Assembly: GCA_963921825.1 (NCBI GenBank)
Contig: OY997588.1
Coordinates: forward strand, 155,683,618-155,747,617
Reading direction: 5' to 3'
From: Erodium maritimum
Taxonomy: Eukaryota; Streptophyta; Magnoliopsida; Geraniales; Geraniaceae
Length of the DNA: 64,000 nucleotides
This document shows positions 14,196 through 42,863 of the stretch, one piece after another. Position numbers and translations under genes: made by a program. How positions within the stretch are numbered: position 1 is the stretch's first letter; each line of letters begins with the position of its first letter. Below the pieces are notes generated by a model, which was given only the letters and a program-made list of their open reading frames with translations, searched no databases and was not told where the DNA came from.

Positions 14196-15474
14196 CATGT
14201 TTTAAACCGATAATAGTTTTGTTTTCACTTTTTTGCCGGTTCTGACGTACTATATTATGCCGAAATCGGTGAAAAACCGAAAAATCTCATGTTAATTGAC
14301 CTAACGAACTCGGATTGGCCTAAAAATAGTGGAAATGCGTAGATATACATATTCTCATTCTCCACGCATGTTTTAAACCGATAATAGTTTTGTTTTCACT
14401 TTTTTTCTGGTTCTGACGTACTATATTATGCCGAAATCGGTGAAAAACCGAAAAATCTCATTTTCATTGACCTAACGAACTCGGACTGGCCTAAAAATAG
14501 TGGGTATGCGTAGATATGCATATTCTCATTCTCCATGCATGTTTTAATCCGGTAATAATTTTTTTCACTTTTTTGCCGGTGCTGACATACTATAGTATGC
14601 CTAAAATGGTTAAAAACCCGAAAAATCTCATTTTCATTGACCTAACGAACTCGGATTGGCCTAAAAATCGTGGGTATGTGTAGATATGCATATTCTCATT
14701 CTCCATGCGTGTTTTAAACCGATAATAATTTTTTTCACTTTTTTGACGGTTCTGACATACTATAGTATGCCGAAATGGGTGAAAAACCGAAAAATCTCAT
14801 TTTCATTGACCTAACGAATTCAGATTGGCATAAAAATAGTGGGTATGAGTAGATATGCATATTCTCATTCTCCATGCATGTTTTAAACCGATAATAATTT
14901 TTTTCACTTTTTTTCCGGTTATGACATACTGTAGTATGCCGAAAACGGTAAAAACCCGAAAAATCTCAATTTTATTGACCTAACGAACTCAGATTGGCCT
15001 AAAAAAAGTGTGTATGCATAGATATACATATTCTCATTCTCCATGCTTGTTTTAAACCGATAATAATTTTTTTCACTTTTTTGCCGGTTCTGACATACTA
15101 TATTATGCCGAAATCGGTGAAAAACCGAAAATTTTCATTTTCATTGACCTAACGAACTCGGGTTGGCCTAAAAATAGTGGGTATGCGTAGATATGCATAT
15201 TTTCATTCTCCATGCATGTTTTAAACCGATAATAGTTTTTTTTCAATTTTTTGCCGGTTCTGACATAGTATGCCGAAATCGGTGAAAAACCAGAAAAATC
15301 TCATTTTCATTGACGCAACGAACTCGGATTGGCCTAAAAATAGTGGGTAGGCTTAGATATACATATTCTAATTCTACATGCATGTTTTAAACTGATAATA
15401 ACTTTTTTCACTTTTTTGCCGGTTCTGACATACTATTTTTTTTTTGATAAGCGAAAAATATTTATTAGGCAAAC

Positions 15475-15494
15475 GTTTTACAAGAAAGTAAAAC
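15475..15494 (-). other. 3'-terminal hairpin of retroposon A
   Basis: Stem GTTTTAC/GTAAAAC (7 bp) with a 6-nt loop, ending about 30 nt from the poly(A). Equivalent hairpins in C (GTTCTA/TAGAAC) and E (GTTTTAAA/TTTAAAAC) keep the pairing with different bases. Confidence 0.7.
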
Positions 15495-15499
15495 GATGC

Positions 15500-15530
15500 G
15501 AGAAAAACAGTCCTTAAAAGGACCTTTTCC
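15500..15530 (-). other. Upstream 3' UTR hairpin of retroposon A
   Basis: In element sense: GAAAA-GGTCC-TTTTAA-GGAC-TG-TTTTTC. A GTCC/GGAC core lies inside a GAAAA/TTTTC outer stem. In B (19201-19224) the core is ATCC/GGAT, a compensated pair change; in D (25491-25513) it is GTCC/GGAT with a G-T pair. Confidence 0.65.
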
Positions 15531-15594
15531 CCCTACCGATACAGGCAAAAACCAAAAACTAAAACAGAACAGAAAGCAAGTACAACCCCTACAC

Positions 15595-17154
15595 CTACTT
15601 CCTATCCGGATTCAAACAAAAGAAACGATTAGAAACCGAAACAGGGGAAACTTCCGATATATCATCCAGCTCGCTATCCATAGCGTCCTCCTCACCATCC
15701 CCTTGTTGCGATGATACAAAACCCGAAGAGAAGGAACCAACCTTTTTTTTCTTCACAAATCTCTTGCTAAAGCTCCACGTACCTTCGTTACTTTGTTTAG
15801 CAATGTCAATAGTGAGACTTCCAGCAGAATCCCCTTTATCAGCTGAAGTTCTGGCTCTCGTCTGATAATAGATGACTGGAGGAGCTGTCTTTGTTAACTG
15901 TCCCTTTTTTGGACGACCCCGCTTCCTTGGAACCTCTGCCGGAATACTGGGTTTGCGCAAAAGAATGTCCTTCCAAATACTGCATTGACACTCGACCAAC
16001 GATGGTTCTTTACCTCGAGGCATGTCAGAGCCCGAGCCCACAGCCGCCACCGGATCCAAATCAGTGTCAATGCGTTTAAAAATGTCGAGCAGCTTCGGCT
16101 CGCTAACCGATGGTTGAGCAGCTGGACGTATACCACAACTCGGCCCAATACCTGCCACACCTCCATCTTCGCCAGGCCCATGTGATCCCTGGCCTACAAA
16201 TGGCCCAAGGCCAGTGCAATCCAGTTCAGCATTGTTTACTCGCGACTGATGTACCAGGCTGGACGTGACGCTGCTCTCACGGGCTTCTGGAGGTTGGGCC
16301 ACTGCATGAGGTTGGGGCCCAAACTCGTCACGATCCAGAACGACACCAACGCCAGCGTTCAACGCTTCTTCTCCGGTAATTTTGCGCGCAGGGATCGAAT
16401 CCACAGTGATTGGAGCTGAATCCCTCAAATCACGCGAAATCGGATCCCTCAGATCACGAGGTGAATCTGAGCTGAGAAAAGACTATTGGCGCGTTACCGG
16501 ACCAGAATCTGTGGCCTCCTTGACCAAAGTCGCCGGAACAGTGATCGGCCGGCGAGCAAGAGCGATGAACCGAACGTATCCGTTGAAAATGAAACCGTTA
16601 TAGGTTTCCACAGCCTGTGCAGCAGTTTCAGAGGACGAAAAAACAACGAAACCAAACCTCTTTCCTCCCTTGTTCAAACGCCTCGGAACAGAGCACGTCG
16701 AGATTTCACCAAAAACTCCAAAGGTTTGACGAACCCATTCCACAGTCGTTTCAAACGGGAGGTTTCGAATATAGATCTCAGTTGAGATTACCTCCCCCAC
16801 AGATGCCGGATTCCGGCGTGCACTCTGGCCTCTTGGCTCCATTGGTGCCGAGTTCTCCTGGGTAGCCGAAATTCCGACCACTTCGTCGAGAATCGTTGCA
16901 GTCGCGCCCTTCGCCACGCTGGAAACTATAAGCTCCTTCTCCACAACCACGTCCGATTGTCTTGTGTCAACCCCGACACCACAAGCAATCACAGTGGCCT
17001 TCACAGACCTGCTCTGTTTCTTAGAACACAGACCTGAACGAACCGGTTCTGCTTCAGCAACATCCGATCGTCTGCGAGACTTGCCAGTACCTCTGCTTGG
17101 TCCCTTCTTTCCCAAAGATAGATCCCCCTTCGTCAAACCAAACCCGACCTTCAA
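15595..17154 (-). pseudogene. RRM/AT-hook ORF1 protein of retroposon A, one in-frame stop
   Basis: One reading frame runs through 17154-15595 with a single TAG at 16485-16483 and no frameshift, about 520 codons. Counting from 17154: a basic N-terminus with GKKGPSRGTGKSRRR; an RRM at about 125-202 (RNP2 IYIRNL, RNP1 KRFGFVVF); a long variable linker; a helix-like LLDIFKRIDTDL; the AT-hook PRKRGRPKKGQ; the tail block IYYQTRARTSADKGD; an acidic stretch; and the C-terminal SNRFFCLNPDRK. RRM ORF1 proteins of plant L1-type LINEs bind element RNA; AT-hooks bind the minor groove of AT-rich DNA. The first codon is TTG, so the true start is uncertain. The frame is probably inactive, though the break is a single codon. 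Confidence 0.85.
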
Positions 17155-19134
17155 ATCCTTTGCTAAACCAGCAACTATGCCACGATACTAGGCATACAGG
17201 GCTAGCAGCGTAGAACCAAAATCTGAGAGAGAAAGGGGGCTCATCATAATTTTACCTCCAATCCCTACTGTACATGAGGTTCTGACATACTATAGTATGC
17301 CGAAAACGGTGAAAAACCGAAAATTCTCATTTTCATTGACCTAACGAACTCGGATTGGCATAAAAATAGTGGGTATGCGTAGATATGCATATTCTCATTC
17401 TCCATGTATGTCTTAACGCAATAATAAATTTTTTTCACTTTTTTGCCGGTTCTGACATACTAAATGCGGAAAACGGTGAAAGACCGAAAAATCTCATTTT
17501 CATTGACCTAACGAACTCAGATTTCCCAAAAAATAGTGGGTATGCGTAGATATGCATATTCTCATTCTCTATGCATATTTTAAACCGATAATAATTTTTT
17601 TCAATTTTTTGCCGGTTTTGACATACTATAATGCCGAAAACGGTGAAAAACTGAAAAATCTCATTTTCATTGACCTAACGAACTCGGATTGGCCTAAAAA
17701 TAGTGAGTATGCGTAGATATGCATATTCTCATTCTCCATGCATGTTTTAAACCGATAATAAATTTTTTCACTTCTTTGCCGGTTCTGACATACTAGTATG
17801 CCGAAAACGGTGAAAAACCGAAAAATCTCATTTTCATTCACGTAACAAACTCGGATTGGCCTAAAAAACAGTGGGTTTGCGTAGATATGCATATTCTCAT
17901 TCTCCATGCATGTTTTAAACCGATAATAATTTTATTTCACTTTTTTGCCGGTTCTGAAATTGGTGAAAAACCAAAAAATCTATTTTTAATTAACCTAACG
18001 AACTCGGATTGGCCTAAAAATAGTGGGTATGGGTAGATATGCATATTCTCATTCTCCATGCATGTTATAACCGATAATAATTTTTTTCCATTTTTTTCCG
18101 GTTCTGACATACTGTATGCTGAAAATGGTGAAAAACCGAAAAATCTCATTTTCATTGACCTAACGAACTCGGATTGGCCTAAAAATAGTGGGTATGCGTA
18201 GATATGCATATTCTCATTCTCCATGCAAGTTTTAACGCGATAATACTTTTTTTTTTTACTTTTTTTGCCGGTTCTGACATACCATATATGCCGAAAACGG
18301 TGAAAAACCGAAAAATCTCATTTTCATTGACCTAACGAACTCGGATTGACATAAAAATAGTGGGTATGCGTAGATATGCATAATCTCATTCTCCATGCAT
18401 GTTTTAACGCAATAATTTTTTTTTCACTTTTTTGCCGATCCTGAAATACTATAGTATGCCGAAATCGGTGAAAAAACGAAAAATCTCATTTTCATTGACC
18501 TAACGAACTCGGATTGGTCTAAAAATAGTGGGTATGCGTAGATATGCATATTCTCATTCTCCATGCATGTTTTAAACCGATAATAATTTTTTTCACTTTT
18601 TTTCCGGTTCTGACATACTATAGCATGCCGAAAACAGTTAAATACCGAAAAATCTCATTTTCATTGACCTAACGAACTCGGATTGGCCTAAAAATAGTGG
18701 GTATGCGTAGATATGCATATTCTCATTCTCCATGCATGTTTTAACGCAATAATAATTTTTTTCACTTTTTTTCCGTTTCCGACATACTATATAGTATGCC
18801 GAAAACGCTGAAAACCCGAAAAATCTCATTTTCATTGACCTAACGAACTCGGATTGGCCTAAAAATAGTGGGTATGCGTAGATATACATATTCTCATTCT
18901 CCATGCATGTTTTAAACCAATAATAGTTTTTTTTTTCACTTTTTTGCCGGTTCTGACATACTATAGTATGCCGAAATCGGTGAAAAACTGAAAAATCTCA
19001 TTTTCATTGACCTAACGAACTCGGATTAGCCTAAAAATAGTTGTTATGCGTAGATATGCATATTCTCATTCTCCATGCATGTTTTAACCCGATAATAATT
19101 TTTTTTCACTTTTTTGCCGGTTCTGACATACTAT

Positions 19135-20567
19135 TTTTTTTTTGATAGGCTAAGAAATTTTATTTGTAAAATGTTCTATAAAGCTATATAACAAAGAAAT
19201 AAAGTATCCAAAAGGATCATTTCCTTAAACCAATACCAGCTCCAAAGAGCAAAATACAAGATAGGAAAAACAAGAAATACAAACGTCTTGCCTACTTCCT
19301 ATCCGGATCAAACAAGTGAACCGGTTTGAAACCTGAACTGGAGTTAAGACATGATCCGAAGTCGGTTCCAAGTACTCCTTGTTCTTCCTGCCCTCAGCGT
19401 CCTTCTTGAACGCCAAAACACAAAGATCAACAAGTCTATGGCCAGCCTTCGAACTGTAACTCCAATTGCCCGTGCTATCTTTTTTAGCGATTTACTAAAA
19501 AACGACCCGTGTCATCCCCTCTATCAACATAGGTCCTGGCTCTTGTCTGATAGACCACGGTTGATATTCTCTTGTCTGAGAATATGCATCCCTTCTTTGG
19601 ACGTCCACGTTTCTTTGGCACCAGTTTTTCCAAGGCTTCCTTCCAAGGACTTCCTTGAAAACCGACTTCCATAAACGGTTCACCATCCCGATGAAGGTTG
19701 TCTAACGCTGGGCCCGAGCTCTTAGAAGCCGAACCAATATCGTTCCCGATACGGGTAAAGACGATGACCAAACTTGGCTCATCGTGGGCAAACAATTGGA
19801 CCTTAGCAGATGGGCTTAGCAAACCAGCCCCATCCAAAGCAGGCCCACCCATGTCTCCTGGATCAGGCCCAACAGGACACAGGCCCATATCAGCACCATC
19901 TCCAAGCCCATTTGGACACCCACGAGATCCATCCTGACATAGTGTCGTCACCGAAAACGCAGGTTTGTCCGAGATTAACGTCGACAGAATTGCAGGAAAT
20001 CGATTCGAAATTGGAAACTCAAAAGATGGGATCCCTTTCGATATCGTGCTCCCTTGAATCACGGAGGTAGCTGCAGAGACGGGTGCGAATGGAACTGGTC
20101 GAGATTGGCTAAAGTCCTCAGGCGGCGACGACGTTGAGAAGGTCACCGGCACGGTCTGACTGGAAACCTCATGGGGGGACCCCTTCCCCTCAACTGACGG
20201 CTGCATCAGAACCCCGGCGCGAGATTCCGGAGCAACTCGCAAAACAGAGCCATTGCTCTGTTTTCCAATTCCAGCTGGATCGATCGCCAGAGACTTCACT
20301 CGCACGTCGTTCCCTTTAGGACACACCATATTGACAACCTCCGTCCAATCAGGAACCGAAGAACCCAGATTGGCGTCAACCTGCAAGAGAGAAACGATGC
20401 TATGTTTCACGATCTCGCCTGGTTCAGTCACCGGAGAATGCAGTCGACGTCGAGAAAATGCCACAAACAAGACGTGGCCCTTCACATTAGCTCCGTTTAA
20501 ACTATTGAAAGCCAGGGACGCAGCAGAGGGAGTCGTTTTGGCGTCTTGGCTTTCACATTCATGTTTT
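19135..20567 (-). mobile_element. Retroposon B: 5'-truncated copy at the same satellite site
   Basis: A 1.43-kb insertion flanked by the same 16-bp satellite duplication as element A, GGTTCTGACATACTAT (19119-19134 and 20568-20583). It is truncated inside the RRM: its coding part begins around DAKTTPSAASLAF and keeps the last RRM strands (GHVLFVAFSRRR). The frame continues to 19484 with LVIVFTRIGNDI, PKKRGRPKKG and VVYQTRART. It then shifts frame and ends near 19300 with SNRFTCL. Satellite sequence upstream is open in the same frame, so a chimeric 403-codon frame exists, but this is incidental. The 5' truncation, poly(A) and target duplication are typical of target-primed reverse transcription. 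Its protein tail is of the B/C/E type. Confidence 0.9.
19173..19192 (-). other. 3'-terminal hairpin of retroposon B
   Basis: GTTCTATA pairs with TATATAAC with one mismatch around a 4-nt loop, in the same position as the hairpins of A, C and E. Confidence 0.5.
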
Positions 20568-22580
20568 GGTTCTGACATACTATAGTATGCCGAAATCGGT
20601 GAAAAACCGAAAAATCTCATTTTCATTGACCTAACAAACTCGGATTGGCCTAAAAATAGTGGGTATGCGTAAATATGCATATTCTCATTCTCCATGAATG
20701 TTTTAAACCGATAATAATCTTTTTCACTTTTTCGCCGGTTCTGACATACTATGCCGAAAACGGTGAAAAACCGAAAAATCTCATTTTCATTAACCTACCG
20801 AACTCGGATTGGCCTAAAAATAGTGGGTATGCGTAGATATGCATATTCTCATTCTCCATGCATGTTTTAACCCGAAAATAATTTTTTTCACTTTTTTTTT
20901 CCGGTTCTGACATACTATAGTATGCTGAAATCGGTGAAAAACCGAAATATCTCATTTTCATTGACCTAACGAACTCGGATTTTCTTAAAAATAGTGGGTA
21001 TGCGTAGATATGCATAATCTCATTCTCCATGCATGTTTTAACCCGATAATAAAGTTTTTCATTTTTTTGCAGGTTCTGACATACTATAGTATGCCGAAAA
21101 CGGTGAAAAACCGAAAAATCTTTTTTTCATTGACCTAACAAACTCGAAATGACCTAAAAATAGTGGGTATGCTTAGATATGCATATTCTAATTCTCCATG
21201 CATGTTTTAACCCGATAATAATTTTTTTTCACTTTTTGCCGATTCTGACATACTATAGTATGCCGAAATCGGTGGAAAACCCAAAAATCTCATTTTTCTT
21301 GACCTAACAAACTCGGATTGGCCTAAAAATAGTGGGTATGCGTAGATATGCATATTCTAATTCTCCATGCATGTTTTGACAAGATAATACTTTTTTTCAC
21401 TTTTTTGCCGGTTCTGGCATACTATAGTATGCCGAAAACGGTGAAAAACCGAAAAATCTCATTTTCATTTACCTAACGAACTACGATTGGGCTAAAAATA
21501 GTGGGTATGCGTAGATATGCATAATCTCATTCTCCATCATGTTTTAACCCGATAGTAATTTTTTTTCACTTTTTTTCCGGTTCTGACATACTATAATATG
21601 CTGAAAACGGTGAAAAACCGAAGTCTTTTTTTCATTGACCTAACAAACTCGGAATGACCTAAAAATAGTGGGTATGATTAGATATGCATATTCTCATTGT
21701 CCATGCATGTTTTAACCCGATAATAATTAGTTTTCAGTTTTTTGCCGGTTCTGACATACTATAGGATGCCGAAATCGGTGAAAAATCGAAAAATCTCATT
21801 TTAATTGACCTAACGAACTCGGATTGGCCTAAAAATAGTGGGTATGTGTAGATATGCATATTCTCATTCTGCATAAATGTTTTAAACCGATAATAAAAAT
21901 TTTCACTTTTTTTCCGGTTCTGACATACTATAGTATGCCGAAAACGGTGAAAAACCGAAAAATCTTTTTTTCATTGACCTAACAAACTCGGAATGACCTA
22001 AAATAGTGGGTATGCGTAGATATGCCTATTCTCATTAGCCATGGATGTTTTAACCAGATAATAAGTTTTTTCACTTTTTTCCCGGAGTATGCCGCAAACG
22101 GTGAAAAACCGAAAAATCTCATTTTCATTAACCTAACGAATTCGGATTGGCCTAAAAATAGTGGGTATTCGTACATATACATATTCTCATTCTCCATGCA
22201 TGTTTTAACCCGATAATAATTTTTTTTCAAATTTTTTTCCGGTTCTTACATACTATATATAGTATGACGAAACCGGTGAAAAACCGAAAAATTTCATTTT
22301 CATTAACCTAATGAAATCTGATTGGCCTAAAAATAGTGGTTATGCGTAGATATGCATATTCTCATTCTCCATGCATGTTTTAAAACGATAATAATTTTTT
22401 TCACTTTTTTGCCGGTTCTGACAAACTATAGTATGCCGAAAACAGTGAAAAACCGAAAAATCTATTTTTCATTGACCTAACAAACTCGGAATGAACTAAA
22501 AATAGTGGGTATGCGTAGATATACATATTCTAATTCTCCATGCATGTTTCAACCCGATAATAATTTTTTTCACTTTTTTG

Positions 22581-22586
22581 CCGGTT
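22581..22586. other. Satellite orientation switch (inversion junction)
   Basis: The left monomer reads ...CACTTTTTTGCCGG and the next reads TTTTTCACCGTTTTCGGCAT, which is the reverse complement of the monomer's A-tract region. Both share CCGGTT at the joint, a microhomology of about 6 bp. From here to 42863 all monomers run in the opposite direction. Confidence 0.9.
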
Positions 22587-25391
22587 TTTCACCGTTTTCG
22601 GCATACTATAGTATGTCAGAACCGTAAAAAAAGTGAAAAAAAATTATTATCGGGTTAAAACATGCCTGGAGAATGAGAATATGCATATCTACGCATACCC
22701 ACTATTTTTAGGCCAATCCGAGTTCGATAGGTCAATGAAAATGAGATTTTTCGGTTTTTCACCGTTTTCGGAAAAAAAGTAAATAAAATTTATTATCGGG
22801 TTAAAACATGCATGGAGAATGAGTGTATGCGTATCTACCCATACCCACTATTTTTAGGCCAATCCGAGTTCGTTAGGTCAATGAAAAATAGATTTTTCGG
22901 TTTTTCACTGATTTCGGCATACTATAGTATGACAGAACCGGCAAAAAAGTGAATTTTTTTTATTATCGGGTTAAAACATGCATGGAGAATGAGAATAAGC
23001 ATATGTAAGCATACCCACCATTTTTAGGTCATTCCGAGTTTGTTAGGTCAATGAAAAAAACACTTTTCGGTTTTTCACCGTTTTCGGCATATAGTATGTC
23101 AGAACCGGCCAAAAAGTGAAAAAAAATTATTATCGAGTTATAACATGCATGGAGAATAATAATATGCATATCTACGCATACCCACTATTTTTAGGGAAAT
23201 CCGAGTTCGTTAGGTCAATGAAAGTTAGATTTTTCGGTTTTTCTCCATTTTCGGCATACTATAGTATGTCAGAACCGGCAAAAAAGTGAAAAAACAATTA
23301 TTATCGGGTTAAAACATGCACGGAGAATGAGAATATGCATATCTACGCATACCCACTATTGTTAAGCCAATCCGAGTTCGTTAGGTCAATGAAAATGAGA
23401 TTTTTCGGTTTTTCACCATTTTCGGCATTAGTGTGTCAGAACCGGCAAAAAAGTGAAAAAAATTATTATTGTGTTAAACCATTGACGGAAAATGAGAATA
23501 TGTATATCTACGCATACCCAGAATTTTTAGGCCAATCCGAGTTCGTTAGGTTAATGAAAAATAAATTTTTCGGTCTTTCACCGATTTCGGCATACTATAT
23601 AGCATGTCAGAACCGGCAAAAAAGTGAAAAAAAATTATTACCGGGTTAAAACATGCATGGAAAATGAGAATATGCATACCTAAGCATACCCACTATTTTT
23701 AGGTCATTCCGAGTTTGTTAGGTCCATGAAAAAAAGACTTCGGTTTTTAACCGTTTTCGGCATACTATAGTATGTCTGAACCGGCAAAAAAGTGAAAATT
23801 TTTATTATCGGGTTAAAACATGCATGGAGAATGAGATTATGCATATCTACGCATACCCACTATTTTTAGGCCAATCCGAGTTCGTTAGGTAAATGAAAAT
23901 GAGATTTTTCGGTCTTTCACCGTTTTCGGCATACTCCGGCAAAAAAGTGAAAAAAAATTATTATCTGGATAAAACATGCATGGAGAATGAGAATATGCAT
24001 ATCTACGCATACCCAGTATTTTAGGTCAATCCGAGTTCGTTTGGTCAATGAAAATGAGATTTTTCGGTTTTTCACCGATTTCGGCATACTATAGTATGTC
24101 AGAACCGGCAAAAAAGTGAAAAAAAATTATCATCCGACTAAAACATGAATGGAGAATGAGAATATGCATATCTACGCATACCCACTATTTTTATGTCAAT
24201 CCGAGTTCGTTAGGTCAATGAAAATGAGATTTTTCGGTTTTTCACCGATTTCGGCATACTAGTATGTCAGAACCGGCAAAAAAGTGAAAAAAACTATTAT
24301 CGGTTTAAAACATGCATGGAGAATGAGAATAAGCATATCTACGCATACCCACTATTTTTAGGCCAATCCGAGTTCGTTAGGTAAATGAAAAATAGATTTT
24401 TCGGTTTTTCACTGATTTCGGCATACTAATATGTCAGAACCGGCAAAAAAGTGAAAAAAATTATTATCGGTTTAAAACATGCATGGAGAATGAGATTATG
24501 CATATCTACGCATACCCACTATTTTTAGGCCAATCCGAGTTCGTTAGGTCAATGAAAATGAAAATTTTCGGTTTTTCAACGTTTTCGGCATACTATAGTA
24601 TGTCAGAACCGGAAAAACATGCATGGACAATTAGAATATGCATATATACGCATGCATGGACAATTAGAATATGCATATATACGCATACACACTATTTTTA
24701 GGCCAATCCGAGTTCGTTAGGTCAATGAAAATGAGATTTTTCGGTTTTTGACCGATTTCGACATACATGCTGAACTTGACAGGCCGGGCCTGGCTGGTGG
24801 ATATCCTGGGCTTGGAGATTCAACAGGTAAGGCCCAAGTGTCTTCCCCAGTGGATCTGGACCCCTCGGGTGCGGGTTCAGATGCTCTTAAGTTTCGGGGT
24901 GTTGAATCGTTATTGGAGACTGGTTTTCAAGGAAATCCGTGGGAGGAAGCCTTACAAAAACCATTTCTGGGGGCTGAACCAAAAAATGTGGTCGCCCCAA
25001 GAAGGGTCAGGCGAAGGTGATTGCACAACCAGTGGTAGTGTATCAGACGAGAGCCAGGACCTCTGCTGATAAAGGGGATGCCAAGGGTCGTTTCTTTGTG
25101 AACGTAGCCAAGAAAGATAGCTCGGGATACTGGAGCTATAGTACGAAGGTCGGTAGAAAAGTTGTTGATCTATGCTCCTTAGCTCTTGATTCCGAGGGAC
25201 AGAGGGACAGGGATTCTGTGGAACCGACTTCTGACCAAGCCCTATCCCCTGTTCCGGTATCTAACCAGTTTACTTGTTTGAACCAGAACAGGAATTAGGC
25301 ACGTTACGTGTTGTTTCTTTCTGGTTCTGTTTTTGCTCTTTGTAGTTGTATTGGTTAAAGGAAAAGATCTTTTCAGATTTTTTCTTGCTTT

Positions 25392-25411
25392 GTTCTATAA
25401 CTTTTTAGAAC
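25392..25411 (+). other. 3'-terminal hairpin of retroposon C
   Basis: GTTCTA/TAGAAC (6 bp) with an 8-nt loop, just before the nested insertion of element D. The paired bases differ from A and E but pairing is kept. Confidence 0.7.
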
Positions 25412-25422
25412 ATGTGCTCAAT

Positions 25423-26094
25423 TTTTTTTTTTGATAAGCGAAAATTGTTATTAGACAAACGTTCTACAAAAGGTAAAACGAAGCAAGAAAAACAATCCTT
25501 AAAAGGACATTTTTCCCCAACCGATACAAGAACAAATAACAATACTAAAAACCAAAACTGAAGCAGGAAGGTAAACTAAACAGAACACCGCCCTCCTTGT
25601 CTACTTCCTGTTCGAAGTCAAGCTAAGAAAGCGGTTAGAAACCGAAATAGGAGTTGAGTGTCCTGAACTCCATTCCGGGTTAACCTCGTCCTCGCTAAAC
25701 TCGCCTTCCTCAGTCTCGACACGCTGTGGGTATTCAGAAACTGGGAAATTGGCAACAGCCCTTTTCACAGTTTTCTTACCAAAGCTCCACTCACCGTCTT
25801 TACTTTGTTTAACAATGTCGATTGTGAAGCTTCCCGCTTGCCCCCCTTATCAGACGATGTTTTGGCTCTTGTCTGATAGATAACAACTGGGGGGCGGTCT
25901 TTTTAGGTTGTCCTTTTTTGGGACGGCCACGTTTCCTTGGAACCTCAACGGGGATACTTTTTGGACTCAAAAGGATATCTTTCCACGGGTGATTCGCAAC
26001 AGGATCTTCAGCCCCGTACACGAGTCCACTACTGCAACTGTCTGGCCCAACAAAGGAGGACTACCTTGGGACAAAACCTCCGCTTGGGTACCGC
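25423..26094 (-). mobile_element. Retroposon D: short 5'-truncated copy nested in C
   Basis: A 0.67-kb insertion on the minus strand inside the 3' UTR of element C. It is flanked by CATGTGCTCAAT (25411-25422) and CATTTGCTCAAT (26095-26106), a 12-bp duplication with one mismatch. It has the T-run (poly(A)), TTTTCGCTTATC, both 3' hairpins (25461-25479 and 25491-25513) and the end of the ORF. Of the protein, NHPWKDILLSPKSIPVEVPR, the AT-hook KRGRPKKGQ and a frameshifted QTRA region remain. It is the A/F type. D is younger than C, and its target is not the satellite palindrome. Confidence 0.88.
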
Positions 26095-32000: not shown

Positions 32001-32159
32001 ACGGAGAATTATAATGTTCATATCTACGCATACCCACTATTTTTAGGACAATCCGATATCGTTAGGTCAATGAAAATGAGATTTTTCGCTTTTTCACCGT
32101 GTTCGGCATACTAGAATGTCAGAACCGGCAAAAAAGTGAAAAAATATTATCGGGTTAAA

Positions 32160-34207
32160 ACATGCATGGAGAATGAGAATATGCATATCTACGCATACCC
32201 ACTATTTTTATTCCAATCCGAGTTCGTTAGGTCAATGAAAATAAGATTTTTCTGTTTTTTACCGCTTTCGGCATACTATAGTATGTCAGAACCGGCAAAA
32301 AAGTGAAAAAATATTATTATCGGTTTAAAACATGCATGGAGAATGAGAATATGCATATCTACGCATACCCACTTTTTTTAGGCCAATCCGAGTTCGTTAG
32401 GTCAATGAAAAATAGATTTTTCGGTTTTTCACCGATTTCGGGATACTATAGTATGTCAGAACCGGCAAAAAAGTGAAAAAAAAATTATTATCGGTTTAAA
32501 ACATGCATGGAGAGTGAGAATATGCATATCTACGCATACCCACTTTTTTTAGGCCAATCCGAGTTCGTTAGGTCAATGAAAAATATATTTTTCGGTTTTT
32601 CAACGATTTCGGCATACTATATATATGTTAGAACCGGCAAAAAAGTGAAAAATAATTATTATCGGGTTAAAACATGCATGGAGAATGAGAATACGCATAT
32701 CTACGCATACCCACTATTTTTAGGCCAATCCGAATTCGTTAGGTCAATGAAAATGAGATTTTTCGGTTTTTCACCATTTTCGGCATACTATACTATGTCA
32801 GAACCGGAAAAAAAAGGGAAATAAAATTATTATCGGGTTAAAACATGCCTGGAGAATGAGAATATGCATATCTACGCATACCCACTATTTTTAGGCCAAT
32901 CCGAGTTAGTTAGGTCAATGAAAAATAAATATTTCGGTTTTTCACCGATTTCGGCATACTATACTATGTCAGAACCGGCAAAAAAGTGAAAAATAATTAT
33001 TATCAAGTTAAAACATGCATGGAGAATGAGAATACGCATATCTACGCATACCCACTATTTTTAGGCCAATCCGAGTTCGTTACGCCAATGAAAATGAGAT
33101 TTTTCGGTTTTTCACCGTTTTCGGCATACTATAGTATGTCAGAACCGGCAAAAAAGTGAAAAAAATATTATTATCGGTTTAAAACATGCATGGAGAATGA
33201 GAATATGCATATCTACGCATACCCACTATTTTTATTCCAATCCGAGTTCGTTAGGTCAATGAAAATAAGATTTTTCTGTTTTTTACCGCTTTCGGCATAC
33301 TATAGTATGTCAGAACCGGCAAAAAAGTGAAAAAATATTATTATCGGTTTAAAACATGCATGGAGAATGAGAATATGCATATCTACGCATACCCACTTTT
33401 TTTAGGCCAATCCGAGTTCGTTAGGTCAATGAAAAATAGATTTTTCGGTTTTTCACCGATTTCGGGATACTATAGTATGTCAGAACCGGCAAAAAAGTGA
33501 AAAAAAAATTATTATCGGTTTAAAACATGCATGGAGAGTGAGAATATGCATATCTACGCATACCCACTTTTTTTAGGCCAATCCGAGTTCGTTAGGTCAA
33601 TGAAAAATATATTTTTCGGTTTTTCAACGATTTCGGCATACTATATATATGTTAGAACCGGCAAAAAAGTGAAAAATAATTATTATCGGGTTAAAACATG
33701 CATGGAGAATGAGAATACGCATATCTACGCATACCCACTATTTTTAGGCCAATCCGAATTCGTTAGGTCAATGAAAATGAGATTTTTCGGTTTTTCACCA
33801 TTTTCGGCATACTATACTATGTCAGAACCGGAAAAAAAAGGGAAATAAAATTATTATCGGGTTAAAACATGCCTGGAGAATGAGAATATGCATATCTACG
33901 CATACCCACTATTTTTAGGCCAATCCGAGTTAGTTAGGTCAATGAAAAATAAATATTTCGGTTTTTCACCGATTTCGGCATACTATACTATGTCAGAACC
34001 GGCAAAAAAGTGAAAAATAATTATTATCGGGTTAAAACATGCATGGAGAATGAGAATACGCATATCTACGCATACCCACTATTTTTAGGCCAATCCGAGT
34101 TCGTTACGCCAATGAAAATGAGATTTTTCGGTTTTTCACCGTTTTCGGCATACTATAGTATGTCAGAACCGGCAAAAAAGTGAAAAAAATATTATTATCG
34201 GTTTAAA
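32160..34207 (-). repeat. Recent tandem higher-order repeat, period 1024 bp (6 monomers)
   Basis: 32160-33183 and 33184-34207 are nearly identical. For example, the sequences at 32507-32824 and 33531-33848 are the same base for base, and one visible difference is TATCAAGTT at 33001 versus TATCGGGTT at 34024. The near-absence of divergence, against 10-20 percent between ordinary neighbours, indicates recent unequal exchange. Confidence 0.9.
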
Positions 34208-35339
34208 ACATGCATGGAGAATTAGAATATGCATATCTACGCATACCCACTATTGCCAATCAGAGTTCGTTAGGTCAATGAAAATGATGTTTTTCGGTTT
34301 TTCACCGATTTCGGCATACTATAGTATGTCGGAAACGGCAAAAAAGTGAAAAAAAAATTATTATCGGTTTACAACATGCATGGAGAGTGAGAATATGAAT
34401 ATCAGAACCAGCAAAAAAGTGAAAATTTTTATTATCAGTTTAAAACATGCATGGGAATGAGAATATGCATATCTACGCATACCCATTATTTTTAGGCCAA
34501 TCCGAGTTCGTTAGGTTAATGAAAATGTGATTTTTCGGTTTTTCACTGTTTTCAGCATACTAGAGTATGTCAGAACCGGCAAAAAAGTGAAAAAAAAAAT
34601 TATCGGGTTAAAACATGCATGGAGAATGAGAGTATGCTTTTCTACGCATACCCACTATGTTTAGGCCAATCCGACTTCGTTAGGTCAATGAAAAATAGAT
34701 TTTTATGTTTTTCAACGATTGACCCACTATTTTTATGTCATTCCGAGTTTGTTAGGTCAATGAAAAAAAGACGTTTCGGTTTTTAACCGTTTTCGGCATA
34801 CTATAGTATGTCAGAACCGGAAAAAAAGAGAAATTTTTTTATTATCGGGTTAAAACATGCATGGAGAATGAGATTATGCATATCTACGCATACCCACTAT
34901 TTTTAGGCCAATCCGAGTTCGTTAGGTAAATGAAAATGAGATTTTTCGGTCTTCCACCATTTTCGGCATACTCCGTCAAAAAAGTGAAAAAAATTATTAT
35001 CTGGTTAAAACATGCATCGAGAATGAGAATATGCATATCTACGTATACCCACTACTTTTAGGCCAATCCGAGTTCGTTAGGTCAATGAAAATGAGATTGT
35101 TCGGTTTTTCACCGATTTCGGCATACTATAGTATGTCAGAACCGGAAAAAAAGTGAAAAAAAATTATTATCGGGTTAAAACATGCATGAAGAATGAGAAT
35201 ATGCATATCTACACATACCCACTATTTCTAGGCCAATCCGAGTCCGTTAGGTCAATTAAAAAAATATTTTTCGGTTTTTCATTGTTTTCGGCATACTCTA
35301 TTATGTCAGAACTTGCAAAAAAGTGAGAAAAAAAATTAT

Positions 35340-36590
35340 TATCGGGTTAAAACATGCATGGAGAATGAGAATATGCATATCTACGCATACCCACTATTTT
35401 TAGTGCAATCCGAGTTTGTTAGATCAATGAAAATGAGATTTTTCGGTTTTTCACCGTTTTCGGCTTACTATAGTATGTCAAAACCGGCAAAAAAGTGAAA
35501 ATATTATTATCAGGCTAAAACATGCACGGAGAATGAGAATGTTCATATCTACGCATACCCACTATTTTTAGGCCAATCCGAGTTAGTTAGGTCAATGAAA
35601 AATAAATATTTCGGTTTTTCACCGATTTCGGCATACTATACTATGTCAGAACCGGCAAAAAAGTGAAAAATAATTATTATCAAGTTAAAACATGCATGGA
35701 GAATGAGAATACGCATATCTACGCATACCCACTATTTTTAGGCCAATCCGAGTTCGTTACGCCAATGAAAATGAGATTTTTCGGTTTTTCACCGTTTTCG
35801 GCATACTATAGTATGTCAGAACCGGCAAAAAAGTGAAAAAAATATTATTATCGGTTTAAAACATGCATGGAGAATGAGAATATGCATATCTACGCATACC
35901 CACTATTTTTATTCCAATCCGAGATCGTTAGGTCAATGAAAATAAGATTTTTCTGTTTTTTACCGCTTTCGGCATACTATAGTATGTCAGAACCGGCAAA
36001 AAAGTGAAAAAATATTATTATCGGTTTAAAACATGCATGGAGAATGAGAATATGCATATCTACGCATACCCACTTTTTTTAGGCCAATCCGAGTTCGTTA
36101 GGTCAATGAAAAATAGATTTTTCGGTTTTTCACCGATTTCGGGATACTATAGTATGTCAGAACCGGCAAAAAAGTGAAAAAAAAATTATTATCGGTTTAA
36201 AACATGCATGGAGAGTGAGAATATGCATATCTACGCATACCCACTTTTTTTAGGCCAATCCGAGTTCGTTAGGTCAATGAAAAATATATTTTTCGGTTTT
36301 TCAACGATTTCGGCATACTATATATATGTTAGAACCGGCAAAAAAGTGAAAAATAATTATTATCGGGTTAAAACATGCATGGAGAATGAGAATATGCATA
36401 TCTACGCATACCCACTATTTTTAGTGCAATCCGAGTTTGTTAGATCAATGAAAATGAGATTTTTCGGTTTTTCACCGTTTTCGGCTTACTATAGTATGTC
36501 AAAACCGGCAAAAAAGTGAAAATATTATTATCAGGCTAAAACATGCACGGAGAATGAGAATGTTCATATCTACGCATACCCACTATTTTT
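35340..36590 (-). repeat. Third copy of the higher-order block
   Basis: 35566-36388 matches 32889-33711 (offset 2677 bp), including the rare TATCAAGTT variant. The sequence at 35340-35565 is repeated at about 36362-36588 on either side of it. This looks like a ~1.02-kb block copied into another monomer register by unequal exchange or conversion. Confidence 0.8.
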
Positions 36591-37035
36591 AGGCCAATCC
36601 GAGTTCGTTAGGTCAATGAAAATGAGATTTTTCGGTTTTTCACCGTTTTCGGTATACTATAGTATGTCAGAACCGGCAAAAAAGTGAAAAACAAATTATT
36701 TTCGCGTTAAAAAATGCATGGAGAATGAGAATATGCATATCTAAGCATACCCACTATTTTTAGGTCATTCTGAGTTTGTTAGGTCAATGAAAAAAAGATT
36801 TTTTTGTTTTTCACCGTTTTTGGCATACTATATAGTATGTCAGAACCGGAAAAAAATTGAAAAAAATTTATTATCGGGTTAAAACATGCATGGAGAATGA
36901 GATTATGCATATCTACGCGTACCCACTATTTTTAGGCCAATCCTAGTTCGTTAGGTAAATGAAAACGAGATTTTTCGGTTTTTCACCATTTTCGGCATAC
37001 TAGTATGTCAGAACCATCTTGGCCATTGGGGGATT

Positions 37036-38706
37036 ATGAAACGCTCTCAAAAAATGAATGGATGGAAGTTTTCTTCCGGTGATAGTGAGGGAGATCCGTT
37101 TCCTTTTGTCTCCTTTTGTTCAACTCACTTGTTACTGTACCGTGACTATAGATCCATCTGCAATCCTAGTGTTATGAAGATGGACAGTCCGATCAAGCAT
37201 CCGGCCAACTCGAAGCATAGCCGTCCAGTCTGCGTTTAGGTCGTGAAGCGCTCCGAACTGAGCAAGATGAAGAGGCGTTCTCGTGGACCTTCATCCACGA
37301 TGTATCGGAACCCCGAAGTTCCTTCTTCTGCTGTGAATCGATCACCCAAACCCAGTGTAGGTGTGATATTGGGCGAACCTGTTGTGGGTCGTGGCCCTTC
37401 ATCAGCAAAGCACCGGTCAGCCACTACGGGTGAAGGCACGGGTGATATTCTGTCGGAGTTTGGTCCAGCGGCTACGTCAGTACCTGGATTGGCGGCTGCG
37501 AAAACAGGGTCTGTGGATGCTCTGTCGACGGAGATTGGAACAGAACCGGTAACAGGTACTGCTCTGTTTCTTCACAATCTAACGTACGGGACGACTTCGG
37601 ATTGGTTTCGGCAGACGTTAGGTTCCTTTGGAGATATTGTCACAGTAAAAATCCTTAGAAGGTTGTCTCGAAAAGGTTACGTGTTTGGCTTTATCGAATT
37701 CAAATCGGAGGAGGCAGCGCTGCAGGTAATCAAAGTGTTTAACGGTTTCAACTTCAAAGGACATGTACTGTTTGTGGCTTTTGCTCGCCCCGGCTCAGGC
37801 AAAATTCGAGATGCCCCTGCTCGGAGCTTAGGAGATGAGTGTTCTTCGGATCGTCGTCGGATGAACAGTGAAGCCGGAAAATAGAGCACGTCGAAACCAG
37901 CGAGATCTGCGGAGTTGCTCGTAACAAAGCCAGATTCTGCGATTCCAATTTCGAATTTGAGTGATTCTCGCGATTCCAATCGTGATCTCAGGGATTTGAT
38001 ATCGGATCAGGATGGAAGTATTGCACGCGGCGAGGATTCTTCGATCGCACGCGTTCCAGGCGGGACTGATGGCTCGTTGGGCGAGGGTGGGCTGACAATT
38101 GGGCCTGTGTTGGTTAAAGGTGTGCAGGCCCAATTGAGTCTAAGCGCAGGTCAGGAGGTCCACCCGGATTCGGGCCTATCAGTTCCTGGACACCGTTCCC
38201 CAATCCGTTAAGAGCCACGATTGGCTGCTGTTCTTAATCGGCTTGAGACTGATTTGGGTCCGTTATCGGGTACTCAGATTAATTCTCGGGTTGTACCGAT
38301 TATGGAATTTGGGTTTAACGGTAGTCCGTGGAAGGACTCCTTGTTAAGACCGTTGTTTCCTGGGGTTGAGACAAAGAGACGTGGACGCCCAAAGAAGGGG
38401 CAGCCGAAGGCACGAGTGCAATCTGTTGTTGTTTATCAGACAAGAGCCAAGACTTCGGCTGACAAAGGAGACAAATTGGGACGTTTCACTGTAAGCTTTG
38501 CCAAAAAGGATGAATCTGGTAATTGGAGTTACAGCTCGAAGGTTGGTAAAAGGGTTGTTAATCTTTGCTCTTTAGCGCTCGAACAGCACAACAAGGTTGT
38601 CGAGGGTATAAAGGACGTGGATTACGTGGAATCGACTTCGGAACATGCTTTATATCCAATTTCGGTCTCTAATAGGTTCTCTTGTCTGAATCCGAATAGG
38701 AATTAA
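37036..38706 (+). pseudogene. RRM/AT-hook ORF1 protein of retroposon E, nonsense-interrupted
   Basis: A single frame can be read from ATG 37036 to TAA 38706 (about 556 codons) with only three internal stops: TAG 37237-37239, TAG 37882-37884 and TAA 38209-38211. There are no frameshifts. In order: basic N-terminus (KRSELSKMKRRSRG); an RRM at about 37555-37795 (RNP2 LFLHNL, RNP1 YVFGFIEF, last strand GHVLFVAFARP); a low-complexity linker with NRDLRD and RDSNRDL; VLNRLETDLGPL; MEFGFNGSPWKDSLL; the AT-hook KRRGRPKKGQ; VVVYQTRAKTSADKGD; GRFTVSFAKKDESGNWSYSS; and the C-terminus SNRFSCLNPNRN. Decay by point nonsense alone suggests a fairly young copy. The protein is probably not made. Confidence 0.85.
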
Positions 38707-38809
38707 GCAAGGTGTTATGTTGAACGCTTGTTCGGTTTCTATTTCTCTGTTAGCTCTATGGAGCTGTATTAGTCTGAGGAAAAGGTCGATTTGGATCTTT
38801 TCTTGCTTT

Positions 38810-38829
38810 GTTTTAAATTCTTTTAAAAC
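38810..38829 (+). other. 3'-terminal hairpin of retroposon E
   Basis: GTTTTAAA/TTTAAAAC (8 bp) with a 4-nt loop, about 32 nt before the poly(A). The upstream hairpin (38778-38802) pairs GAAAAGGTC with GATCTTTTC through one G-T pair. Confidence 0.7.
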
Positions 38830-40220
38830 ATTGATCAATAAACAATTTCGCCTATAAAAAAAAGTATGTCAAAACCGGAAAAAAAAGTGAAAAAAATTAT
38901 TATCAGGTTAAAACATGCATTGAGAATGAGAATACGCATACCCACTATTTTTAGGCCAATCCGAGTTCGTTAGGTCAATGAAAATGAGATTTTTCGGTTT
39001 GTCACCGTTTTGGGCATACTATAGTATGTCAGAACCGGCAAAAAAGTGAAAAAAAGTATTATCGGTTTAAAACATGCATGGAGAATGAGAATATTCATAT
39101 ATAAGCATATCCACTATTTTTAGGTCATTCCGAGTTCGTTAGGTCAATGAAAAAAAGATTTTTCGGTTTTCACCGTTTTCGGCATACTATAGTATGTCAG
39201 AACCGGCAAAAAAGTGAAAAAAATTTATTATCGGGTTAATACATGAATAGAGAATGAGATTATGCATATCTACGCATACCCACTGTTTTTAGGCCAATCC
39301 AAGTTCGTTAGGTAAATGAAAATGAGATTTTTCGGTTTTTACCGTTTTTGGCATACAATATATAGTATGTCAGAACCGGAAAAAAAATGAAATTTTTTTA
39401 TTATCGGGTTAAAACAAGCATGGAGAATTAGAATATGCATATATACGCATACCCACTATTTTTAGGCCAATCCGAGTACGTTAGGTCAATGAAAAATAGA
39501 TTTTTCGGGTTTTCACCGATTTCGGCATACTATATTATGAAAGAACCGGAAAAAAGTGAAAAAAATTTATTATTGGGTTAAAACATGCATGGAGAATAAG
39601 AATATGCATATCTAAGCATACCCACTATTTTTAGGTCATTCCGAGTTTGTTAGGTCAATGAAAAAAAGATTTTTCGGTTTTTCACCGTTTTCGGCATACT
39701 ATAGTATGTCAGAACCGGAAAAAAAGTGAAACAAAATTATTATCGGGTTAAAACATGCATGGAGAATGAGATTATGCATATCTACGCATACCCACTATTT
39801 TTAGGCCAATCCGAGTTCGTTAGGTAAATGAAAATGAGATTTTTCGGTTTTTCACCGTTTTCGGCATACTATATATAGTATGTCAGAACCGGCAAAAAAG
39901 TGAAAAAAAAGATATTATCGCGTTAAAACATGCATGGAGAATGAGAATATGCATATATACGCATACCCACTATTTTTAGGCCAATCCGAGTTCGTTAGGT
40001 CAATGAAAATGAGATTTTTCGGTTTTTCACCGTTTTCGGCATACTATATATTATGTCAGAACCGGCAAAAAAGTGAAAAAAAATTATTATCGCGTTAAAA
40101 CATGCATGGAGAATGAGAATATGCATATCTACGCATACCCACTATTTTTATGCCAATCCGAGTTCGTTAGGTCAATGAAAATGAGATTTTTCGGTTTATC
40201 ACCGTTTTCGGCATACTATA

Positions 40221-42000
40221 TATTTTTTTATAAGAGAAATTTTATTAAGCAAACGTTCTACAAGAAAGTAAAATGATGCAAGAAAAACAATCCTTAAAAG
40301 TACCTTTTCCCCAAACCGATACAAGCAAAAAGTAAACTAATAACAGAAAGAACAGGAAAGCAAACTAAACAGAGAACCGCCCTCCTTGCCTACTTCCTAT
40401 CCGGATTCAGGCAGAGAAATCTATTAGACACCGAAACAGGCGTGGAATTTCCTGAAAACGCTTCCGGACTAACCTCATTCTCGCAATCCTCGACTTCCTC
40501 CTCAACTTCAACACCAACAATTGAGGAGTTAACAACAACCCTTTTCACACATCGCTTGCTAAAGCTCCACGTTCCATCTTTACATTGTTTAGCAATATCG
40601 ATAGTGAAACTTCCCGACTGACCTCCTTTATCAGCCGAAGTTTTGGCTCTTGTCTGGTAAAAAACAGTTGGAGGAACTAACAGTTTTGACTGCCCTATTT
40701 TGGACGGCCTCGTTTCTTTGGGACTTGTACGGGGATACTCTTTTTATTCAGAAGAATGTCTTTCCACGGGCTTCCATCAAGATCCACAGAAGTACCTTCG
40801 TCAACTACCATTGCAGGTAATGTAACCCCAGACATCTTTTTGGCTTGCGTACCTGTCAGGCCAATCTGAACTTGAGTTTCCACTGGTCCATCTTTAGCCG
40901 AGTTTAAAACCTCAAGCCCTCTCGGGGGAAAGCCCTCAACTGAAGTCAAATCTGAACCAATGCGTTTAAAAATGTCGAACAACCTCGGATCACTGGTTGA
41001 CTTCTGGACCACTGGGCCTGGGCCACCACTTGGCCCAATTGCTGCATCAACATGTGCTGCTAATGGATTAACCGGGCCTGGTTTTGGCCCAATTACCCCA
41101 CAGCCCACACCAGATACAACTCCTCCACACAGCTCTTCTTCTTCGCACGCAACCTGATTATGCGTGGGCTTGGCATTTGGATACAAATAATTGGGATTGT
41201 CAACAGATGTTGTAATCGCGGAGCGTGATTTCTGGGCCACCGAGATATCAGTTCCACCATCAACGCGAAAGGAATCCAATCCATCCGGAACGCTCGGAGA
41301 TGGGACGACGCTCTCGCCGGCCGTAATTTCGACGGTGATCGGATTGTCCTTGGTCGAAATCAATCCCTCACCTGACCCTTCACGACTGTTGCCCAACAAA
41401 ACACCATCCGGACGCGAAAGCCCCATGGGATCATCGATATTTGCTGCCAGACGAGATGCTCTGTTTTCCTCATCTGAGCCGGTCGCCGGAGCTCGAGGAC
41501 GGGCTATGGCCACGAACAACACATATCCGTTAACTTTGAGCCCATTAAGACTTTCCACGACTTCAATCACTGCAGACGACGTCGCTAATGTAACAAAGCC
41601 GAAGTATCTTCCTCGTCTGTTCGCGCGTCTCAAAACAGAGCAAGCGGAGATCGATCCGAAGGTGCCAAACACAGTACGCACCCAATCTTCAGACGTCTCA
41701 AAGGGAAGGTTATGGATGAATATCTCACGGGAGGGGATATGGAGGCATGTATCAGTCGGCTCGACATGAACAGGAAGCAGAGCACCGGTCTTGGGCTTCG
41801 CAGACTTCTCCTCCGACACCGTCTCAGAGGTCTTGCCTGCAACCGGATCTGGTTTTAACCCTCCACCAGTCGCCCTTTTCCCCTGTTTCCGACGAGAAGG
41901 AACTTCTGTCCCAGCCCCTTCCCTATTCCGTGTCTTCCTCGATCTACCTTCGACGCCACCCTGTCCAGTTCCTGCCACAATGTCGTTCACCACCACCACA
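40221..42000 (-). mobile_element. Retroposon F: near full-length, opposite orientation at the same palindrome
   Basis: A 1.78-kb minus-strand insertion in the reversed satellite block, so its orientation relative to the monomer is opposite to A, B, C and E. Left flank ...GCATACTATA (40211-40220), right flank TAGTATGTC (42001-). The joint therefore lies in the palindrome CATACTATAGTATG, which is identical on both strands. Any target duplication is at most about 3-4 bp. It has a T-run (40222-40229), a terminal hairpin (40255-40273) and an upstream hairpin (40281-40310). Subfamily A/D/F. Confidence 0.88.
40390..41999 (-). pseudogene. RRM/AT-hook ORF1 protein of retroposon F
   Basis: The frame is open from satellite (42089) through to 40695. 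The element-encoded part begins about NDIVAGTGQGGVEGRSR. There is a basic region (PSRRKQGKRA); an RRM about 122-198 counted from 42089 (RNP2 IFIHNL, RNP1 RYFGFVTL, last strand YVLFVAIARP); a variable linker; RLFDIFKRIGSDL; DGSPWKDILL; KSIPVQVPKKRGRPK; then TAG (40695-40697), where relatives have a lysine codon. Beyond the stop the homologous tail continues in a shifted frame (FYQTRAKTSADKGG, GTWSFSKR, SNRFLCLNPDRK) to TAG at 40390-40392. The lysine codon AAG to TAG would be one base change. It looks recently inactivated. Confidence 0.85.
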
Positions 42001-42863
42001 TAGTATGTCAGAACCGGCAAAAAAGTGAAAAAAATTATTATCGGTTTAAAACATGCATGGAGAATGAGAATACGCATATCTAGCCACACCCACTATTTTT
42101 AGGCCAATCCGAGTTTGTTAGGTCAATGAAAAAAAGATTTTTCGGTTTTGCACCGTTTTCGACATACTATAGTATGTCCGAACCGGCAAAAAAGTCGAAA
42201 TTTTTTATTATCGGTTTAAAACATGCATGGAGAATGAGAATATGCATATCTACGCAGACCCACTATTTTTAGGCCAATCCGAGTTTGTTAGGTCAATGAA
42301 AATGAGATTTTTCAGTTTTTCACCGTTTTCGGCACAGTATGTCAGAACTGGCAAAAAAGTGAAAAAAAATCATTATCGGGTTAAAACATGCATGGAGAAT
42401 CAGATTATGCATATCTATGCATACCCACTATTTACAGGCCAATCTGAGTTCGTTAGGTAAATGAAAATGAGATTTTTCGGTTTTTCACCGTTTTCGGCAT
42501 ACTATAGTATGCCAGAACCGGCAAAAAAATGAAAAAAGAATATATTATCGGTTTAAACCATGCATGGAGAATGAGAATATGCATATCTACGCATACCCAC
42601 TATTTTTAGGTCATTCCGAGTTCGTTAGGTCAATGAAAATGAGATTTTTTTTTTCAGTTTTTCACCGTTTTCGGCATACTATAGTATGTCAGAACAGGCA
42701 AAAAAGTGAAAAAAAATTATTATCGGTTAAAACATGCATGGAGAATGAGAATATGCATATCTACGCTTACCCACTATTTTTATGCCAATCCGAGTTCGTT
42801 AGGTCAATGAAAATGAGATTTTTCGGTTTTTCACCGTTTTCGGCATACTATAGTATGTCAGAA

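Follow-up and report, generated by a model that had tools for sequence, protein, structure and literature searches.

A 64,000-nucleotide stretch of Erodium maritimum DNA (the window; contig C1:155683618-155747617 within a 763-Mb assembly) contained an array of a 169-bp satellite interrupted by the retroposons A, B, C1, E and F, with the 5' part of another, G, directly after it. The elements encoded a protein of the open reading frame 1 (ORF1) type with an RRM and an AT-hook-like motif, as in some long interspersed elements (LINEs), and the subject of this work was their repeated insertion at one palindromic site of the satellite monomer. Features of the window are listed in Table 1. The palindrome CATACTATAGTATG, with up to two mismatches allowed, occurred 96 times in the window vs 0.21 expected, and the array changed orientation inside 22640-22887. 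In 354 monomer alignments (the window and L068-L073), palindrome conservation was 0.868 vs a monomer average of 0.916, with the minimum at the palindrome centre; the idea that the palindrome was the most conserved core of the arrays was rejected (rank 135 of 156 monomer windows).

Table 1. Features of the satellite array and its retroposons (positions in the window; UTR, untranslated region)
Feature	Position	Strand or orientation	Remarks
169-bp satellite array	8479..42863	sat+ to ~22640, inverted from ~22887	Interrupted by elements A, B, C1, E and F
Target duplication of A, left copy	15421..15436	+	16 bp, GGTTCTGACATACTAT; read directly
Element A	15437..17277	-	ORF1-only retroposon, frame broken by a stop; poly(A) at 15437
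Parts of element A	RRM 16573-16782; AT-hook-like GRPKKG 15898-15930; 3' hairpin ~15474-15495		
Target duplication of A, right copy	17278..17293	+	Read directly
Target duplication of B, left copy	19119..19134	+	16 bp; read by eye
Element B	19135..20567	-	5'-truncated within the RRM, judged by likeness to other elements
Target duplication of B, right copy	20568..20583	+	Read by eye
Element C1	24767..26130 (24767-25422 + 26107-26130)	+	Split by C2; at the palindrome, without target duplication
Element C2	25423..26094	-	Nested in the 3' UTR of C1 at CTCAAT^AAAAA
Element E	37016..38862	+	RRM 37558-37779; 14-bp duplication at 37002-37015 and 38863-38876
Element F	40221..41999	-	RRM 41508-41729; reverse orientation relative to satellite; without duplication
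Element G	42864..43560	+	5' part only; RRM 43301-43522; 5' joint TCAGAA|GAAATT

The original prediction placed A, B, C, E and F at one satellite site, and direct reading confirmed this, C being element C1: all five shared the joint CATACTAT^AGTATG, the first cut of A, B, C1 and E being on the satellite strand with GGTTCTGA and that of F on the opposite one. Since C2 was inserted in the 3' UTR of C1, with a 12-bp duplication CAT(G/T)TGCTCAAT containing one mismatch, it was not counted as a satellite insertion. The identical duplication claimed for A and B was found (16/16, flanking both elements on each side), and that of E (left AGTATGTCAGAACC, right AGTATGTCAAAACC, 13/14 matching) covered the same stretch in a variant host monomer, CATACTAGTATG, with a shorter palindrome. 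For G, said to have the same 5' joint, the agreement was near, two bases from that of E, and the 3' joint was lost in a copia-like gag segment. The window copies varied in 5' truncation, were ~67–75% identical where blastn aligned them (mostly 200–580 bp at the 3' end) and fell into two subfamilies by reading of their C-termini (A/C2/F and B/C1/E), bearing out the claim that they were not one amplified insertion, with the caveat that C1 shared its 5' break with three copies elsewhere (see below). Under a uniform model the probability of five out of five insertions within two monomer positions was 2e-10, a value weakened by the choice of the window because of this very pattern.

Across the genome, poly(A) was joined to TAGTATGTCAGAA at 41 exact joints and to TAGTATGCCGAAA at 16, and reversed-pattern controls gave 0. 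All 41 + 16 joint places were within 8 Mb of a contig end. Intact sites of equal exactness numbered 1410, so that ~2.8% were filled. Thirty of the 41 joints were sequenced (L038-L067) and yielded 28 distinct sequences: L063 and L065, and L064 and L066, were identical over 400 bp, the next-closest pair was 92.7% identical, and the median was 76.8% over 77 aligning pairs. As distinct sequence alone was no proof of separate insertion, the firmest cases were 11 distinct insertions with their own 13–17-bp duplications (at most one mismatch) among loci showing both ends, i.e. A, B, E, L045, L051, L060, L068b, L069, L070, a 903-bp element and the LINE L074. A 60-kb set of arrays, selected through the joint pattern and hence biased toward the site, contained 12 interruptions, of which nine had their 3' end at monomer position 8, two (mutual copies) lay at the palindrome in reverse orientation and one (2376 bp, L072) lay elsewhere; the 5' end was at monomer 161–164 in five of the 12. 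At one joint (L053, C3:1440849) a ~70-bp retroposon 3' tail on the site was preceded by a stretch that by eye resembles a tRNA, together with other sequence, and this fusion suggests template switching during reverse transcription.

To sample copies without regard to target, a 106-aa piece of C1 was used as a query, giving 150 scored matches out of 3183 candidates over nine large contigs. Of these, 135 were read (30 loci and 105 slices) and 15 were unread; 12 of the 135 were unparsable (among them L008, which was C1 itself, and L023 and L089, near satellite without a readable joint), 123 had a readable 3' end, and exclusion of a subtelomeric pick (L180, near-site joint in opposite orientation) left 122. 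Ten of these copies were inside the satellite and 112 outside. Seven of the ten were on site within 2 bp (L009-L012, L078, L090 and, in opposite orientation, L163), as was the query C1. One 5' break was common to C1 and three copies of contig C5 (L009, L010 and L012), which probably represent one insertion spread by duplication, so the independent satellite insertions were counted as five on site and three off. The probability of five out of eight on site was 4e-10 at one exact position and 6e-6 allowing plus or minus 3 bp. Satellite insertions were in ~29-fold excess (10/122 vs a 0.28% genome share), or 21-fold with the duplicated group collapsed; the 169-bp satellite made up ~0.28% of the genome when every exact palindrome was counted and 0.11% from canonical sites alone, many palindromes belonging to another satellite.

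Beyond the poly(A), the 112 non-satellite flanks were mildly enriched in T followed by A and had no strong target consensus. A second subfamily, found with F as the query, was likewise dispersed, judged by coordinates, and the A/F subfamily was rejected as a satellite specialist, with 9 of 150 matches within or near known satellite positions by coordinates (flanks unread). R2 of rDNA and TRAS/SART of telomeric repeats, which insert in one repeated target, had been named as parallels; exclusivity of that kind failed with 112 of 122 copies elsewhere. Thus, in this sample the scatter outside the satellite largely refuted a strictly target-specific element, and a strong hotspot inside it remained. 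Repeated hits at one monomer position by diverged lineages, as claimed, were upheld by the 41 + 16 joints, the 28 distinct sequences out of 30 and the polyphyly of satellite copies described below. The observation of repeated insertion at the palindrome was therefore confirmed, and its first interpretation was partly supported.

Elements A, E and F measured 1.78–1.85 kb between satellite joints (L068-L070 up to 1.92 kb) and each contained an RRM (RRM_1); Pfam gave no RRM match in element B. The layout of A, E and F was an RRM, the motif GRPKKG (presumably an AT-hook, without a library match), a conserved YQTRA(R/K)T, a short 3' UTR and poly(A), with frames broken in places. This left no space for ORF2, indicating that they were ORF1-only elements, and in 122 further copies poly(A) directly followed the ORF1 C-terminus. 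Most of 61 3' tails folded as a hairpin followed by a stretch like TTAATAAA..TTCGCTTATC and then poly(A); the tail of B had no such fold. In an alignment of 24 tails, 85.9% of the cells of an 8-bp stem were paired, double-change cells numbered 21 vs 7.6 in shuffles, and slid versions were worse. Four stem pairs had a double change, and 35 of 500 shuffles gave as many; the number of further pair types was matched in 335 of 500. The pair count on this alignment supports the predicted hairpin. For the ORF1 C-termini, median dN/dS was 0.25 over 731 pairs (42 of 60 rows open). The use of open rows only biases this value downward, but it fits an ORF1 that may have been kept working while the elements spread.

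Full-length partners were present at the same site. L039 and L059 ended in a LINE ORF2 and a 3' tail like that of the ORF1-only elements, and L043 read as a truncated ORF2 copy. The full loci of the first two (L074 and L075) were near-full-length LINEs of ~5.9 and ~5.8 kb with their 3' joint at the site. L074, whose frames were interrupted and read piecewise, contained RRM_1 (26.9 bits, cut-off 20.7), an APE-type endonuclease, Exo_endo_phos (PF03372, 67.2), RVT_1 (PF00078, 126) and zf-RVT (PF13966, 36.8). BNR-type plant L1 elements reportedly also have an endonuclease and a reverse transcriptase. The L074 endonuclease as a query gave 146 matches from 9612 candidates, including one at C3:3.24 Mb (L075) and one at C2:5.27 Mb, between known joints (locus unread). 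LINEs like L074 and L075 probably supplied the machinery by which the ORF1-only copies were mobilised.

Taken together, these results make it probable that the satellite copies are ORF1-coding riders of an RRM/AT-hook LINE family of the L1 type, moved in trans, for which the satellite palindrome site is a hotspot. A, B, C1, E and F (probably also G) would be non-autonomous members of this family, tied to the near-full-length LINEs by the shared 3' hairpin tail and poly(A), and reverse transcribed, probably in trans, by the endonuclease and reverse transcriptase of such a LINE. A first nick would fall at CATACTAT^AGTATG of the subtelomeric satellite, more often on the GGTTCTGA-bearing strand, the poly(A) tail would be primed from the nicked 3' end, and where a duplication was left the second cut would lie 13–17 bp off, adjoining CC|GGTTCTGA. 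The order of the cuts and the cause of the hotspot are inferred. The endonuclease appears otherwise relaxed, which would make the satellite site a hotspot and not an exclusive target, and the palindrome would need its own flanks or chromosomal setting to be hit.

Several points weigh against this reading. The 41 and 16 joints came from a pattern that detects only this site, and three of the eight independent satellite insertions were off it (L118, L160 and L166, inserted before GATAATGATAATATGC, AGATTTTTCGG and CGAACTCGG, respectively). In seven distinct on-site insertions among the loci showing both ends, no duplication was found by a search that also overlooked that of B through an edge error, so repair of another kind may have made some joints. 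On the same 24-tail alignment RNAalifold gave no predicted pairs, which we read as the effect of a bulge in the LINE tails shifting the alignment. The nearest relatives of the L074 endonuclease (90–92%) were at other chromosome positions, judged by coordinates (flanks unread). The ORF1 proteins of the LINEs and of the ORF1-only elements were 26–44% identical in two stretches (the RRM and the AT-hook region), and the LINEs in hand may thus not be the actual helper. Mobilisation of the ORF1-only copies in trans would have the shared 3' hairpin and the shared site as its basis.

Control sites were used to see what made the site hot. At TTTT/AA in the same monomer, 0 poly(A) joints were found in one orientation and one in the other, which was chromosome-interior and equal to the control; ~7 joints were expected at the palindrome's rate from 237 exact sites of the first form (Poisson 0.001). 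A canonical TTTT/AA preference inside the satellite was rejected, as no satellite joints were there. A distant sister satellite with a ~179-bp period (contig C1:43.2-43.5 Mb, L002-L007) was 61% identical to the 169-bp satellite over 294 columns (E 7e-12) and had the same 14-bp palindrome (14/14 by construction, because an exact match to the palindrome had been used to find the loci). By the counts, this 179-bp satellite seems to hold most of the genome's 4662 exact palindromes. Its 3155 intact site-sides (up to two per palindrome) had one joint, vs 41 joints to 1410 intact site-sides in the 169-bp satellite (odds ratio 92, P 5e-20), with sister-satellite locations judged from the first 100 places listed. 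The palindrome as a sufficient target was thus rejected, and the earlier suggestion that it alone was the target failed on this near-disuse and on the three off-site insertions. Since the sister palindrome was spared, either the flanking GGTTCTGA/TCAGAACC, at which the second cut is placed, or the chromosomal setting must matter; the present data fit either as the inferred cause.

Accessibility alone, with nucleosomes phased at 169 bp leaving the palindrome in the linker of open subtelomeric chromatin, would account for dispersed copies without a strong consensus and for an identical palindrome ~90-fold less occupied in a sister satellite whose listed places are interior. However, linker access alone would spread cuts over tens of bases, whereas the first cut was constant within about two bases and the second adjoined CC|GGTTCTGA in the 11 insertions with a duplication. 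TTTT/AA in the same monomer was also unused, though it may itself be nucleosomal. As a sole cause we consider accessibility unlikely, although it is compatible with riders of an L1-type family using a hotspot.

Equally doubtful is a division of labour in which a LINE lineage with a satellite-specialised endonuclease made the satellite copies and other LINEs the dispersed ones. The precision at the satellite site of a family relaxed elsewhere, and the three LINE ORF2 copies on site, would be explained. But the nearest endonucleases to that of L074 were away from known satellite positions (flanks unread), and satellite and dispersed ORF1-only copies were interleaved in a tree of 60 ORF1 C-termini, where satellite copies needed 13 label changes, at least five of them forced by well-supported branches. 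The satellite copies were thus polyphyletic, and a single satellite-specialised lineage of ORF1-only elements was rejected. The tree carried a program warning on few columns, its dispersed copies had been picked for their resemblance to C1, it contained repeat rows (L041 = A, L042 = B, L065 = L063), and C2 and L023 were labelled dispersed.

Capture of retroposon cDNA during break repair at an unstable palindrome, independent of a LINE endonuclease, fits the seven distinct insertions without a found duplication and the below-average conservation of the palindrome, but is very improbable given eleven insertions with 13–17-bp duplications and 3' poly(A) at one constant base, both of which typify target-primed reverse transcription, and the almost unused palindrome of the sister satellite. 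Amplification, in which unequal exchange and segmental duplication would have multiplied a few insertions along with their array, explains a minority (the two identical pairs among the sequenced joints, a 617-bp insert present twice in L073, and the 5' break common to C1, L009, L010 and L012) and is refuted as the sole cause by the 28 different sequences among 30 joints, no two of which exceed 92.7% identity over 400 bp, and by the many lineages and the variety of those 5' ends that were seen.

Within the reading of an L1-type family with ORF1-only riders, a further step can be put forward, tentatively and with low confidence: the LINE machinery may read not the palindrome but an extended subtelomeric target, CC|GGTTCTGACATACTAT^AGTATG, and the rider's selected RRM/AT-hook protein may, when bound to the RNA of the rider, direct the borrowed endonuclease to the AT-rich repeat. 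The extended target is drawn from the sister satellite, which has the identical 14-bp palindrome with other flanks and was spared ~90-fold. If true, this would be a split two-part retroposon system, the rider supplying its own targeting protein.

Other features of the window were as follows. Left of the array (1402-1816 and 7761-8131) were imperfect 30/59-bp tandem repeats in both orientations, built on a motif like GGGTACTAAAAT / TTTAGTACCC. Element G contained a 60-bp tandem repeat (43111-43248), and the copia-like gag segment after it (42864-44230; PF14223 below cut-off) recurred inverted at ~43950-44180.

The site provides a natural experiment on the way in which an otherwise relaxed LINE endonuclease gains precision. 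Of two sister satellites that each bear the palindrome at least many hundreds of times, one is hit and the other spared, which allows the role of sequence flanks to be tested directly against that of chromatin. Plant retroposons that code for ORF1, lack ORF2 and have signs of ORF1 selection bear on the question of what makes a rider retain an ORF1 protein of its own. The HAL1 (half-L1) elements of mammals also code for ORF1, lack ORF2 and are presumably moved in trans. Our elements resemble them as bounded elements with ORF1 and without ORF2, and differ in their plant genome, RRM/AT-hook ORF1 and satellite hotspot.

An RRM in ORF1 is known from BNR-type plant L1 elements (the title of Heitkam and Schmidt 2009, as referenced in PMC3747384), and the likeness here is one of domain content. 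A conserved 3' stem-loop was described in plant L1s, with SINE (short interspersed element) partners in a monocot lineage (Ohshima 2013, PMC3747384); in both cases a hairpin with compensatory changes is common to LINEs and non-autonomous elements ending in poly(A), but the partners there are SINEs and here an ORF1-coding element. Most target-specific families are placed in early-branched, Tx1 and R1 groups, where weakly specific members such as crocodile Utopia exist (Kojima and Jurka 2015, PMC4640811). R2 and the R1-clade (TRAS, SART) and Tx1-clade elements, like ours, have inserted many times at a single place in a repeated target, but are described as target-specific (PMC4640811), whereas most copies here were outside the target.

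The original prediction knew of no described plant equivalent, but one exists: L1-CS LINEs are targeted to two sites of the satellite CUS-TR24 of Cuscuta europaea (Vondrak et al. 2021, PMC8091179). Besides Cuscuta no other plant case turned up in the literature searched, including passages of PMC12477314, which is not a claim of absence from print. In both systems plant L1 LINEs inserted repeatedly at fixed positions of a satellite monomer, with several masters, 5' and 3' ends offset by ~13–16 bp, and arrays with inversions and duplications. The two Cuscuta sites, TTCTA and TTTCAA, were likened to TTTTAA, whereas the site here is the palindrome centre CATACTAT^AGTATG; full-length elements of 5–7 kb were mapped there, whereas those here are mostly ORF1-only and in a subtelomeric satellite; and 91% of L1-CS lay within 10 kb of the satellite (PMC8091179), vs 10 of 122 sampled copies in the satellite here. 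The Erodium hotspot is thus of the same kind as that of Cuscuta, adds to the cases in which LINEs target plant satellite DNA, and is new in its non-canonical site, coding ORF1-only elements, context dependence and a family residing mostly elsewhere.

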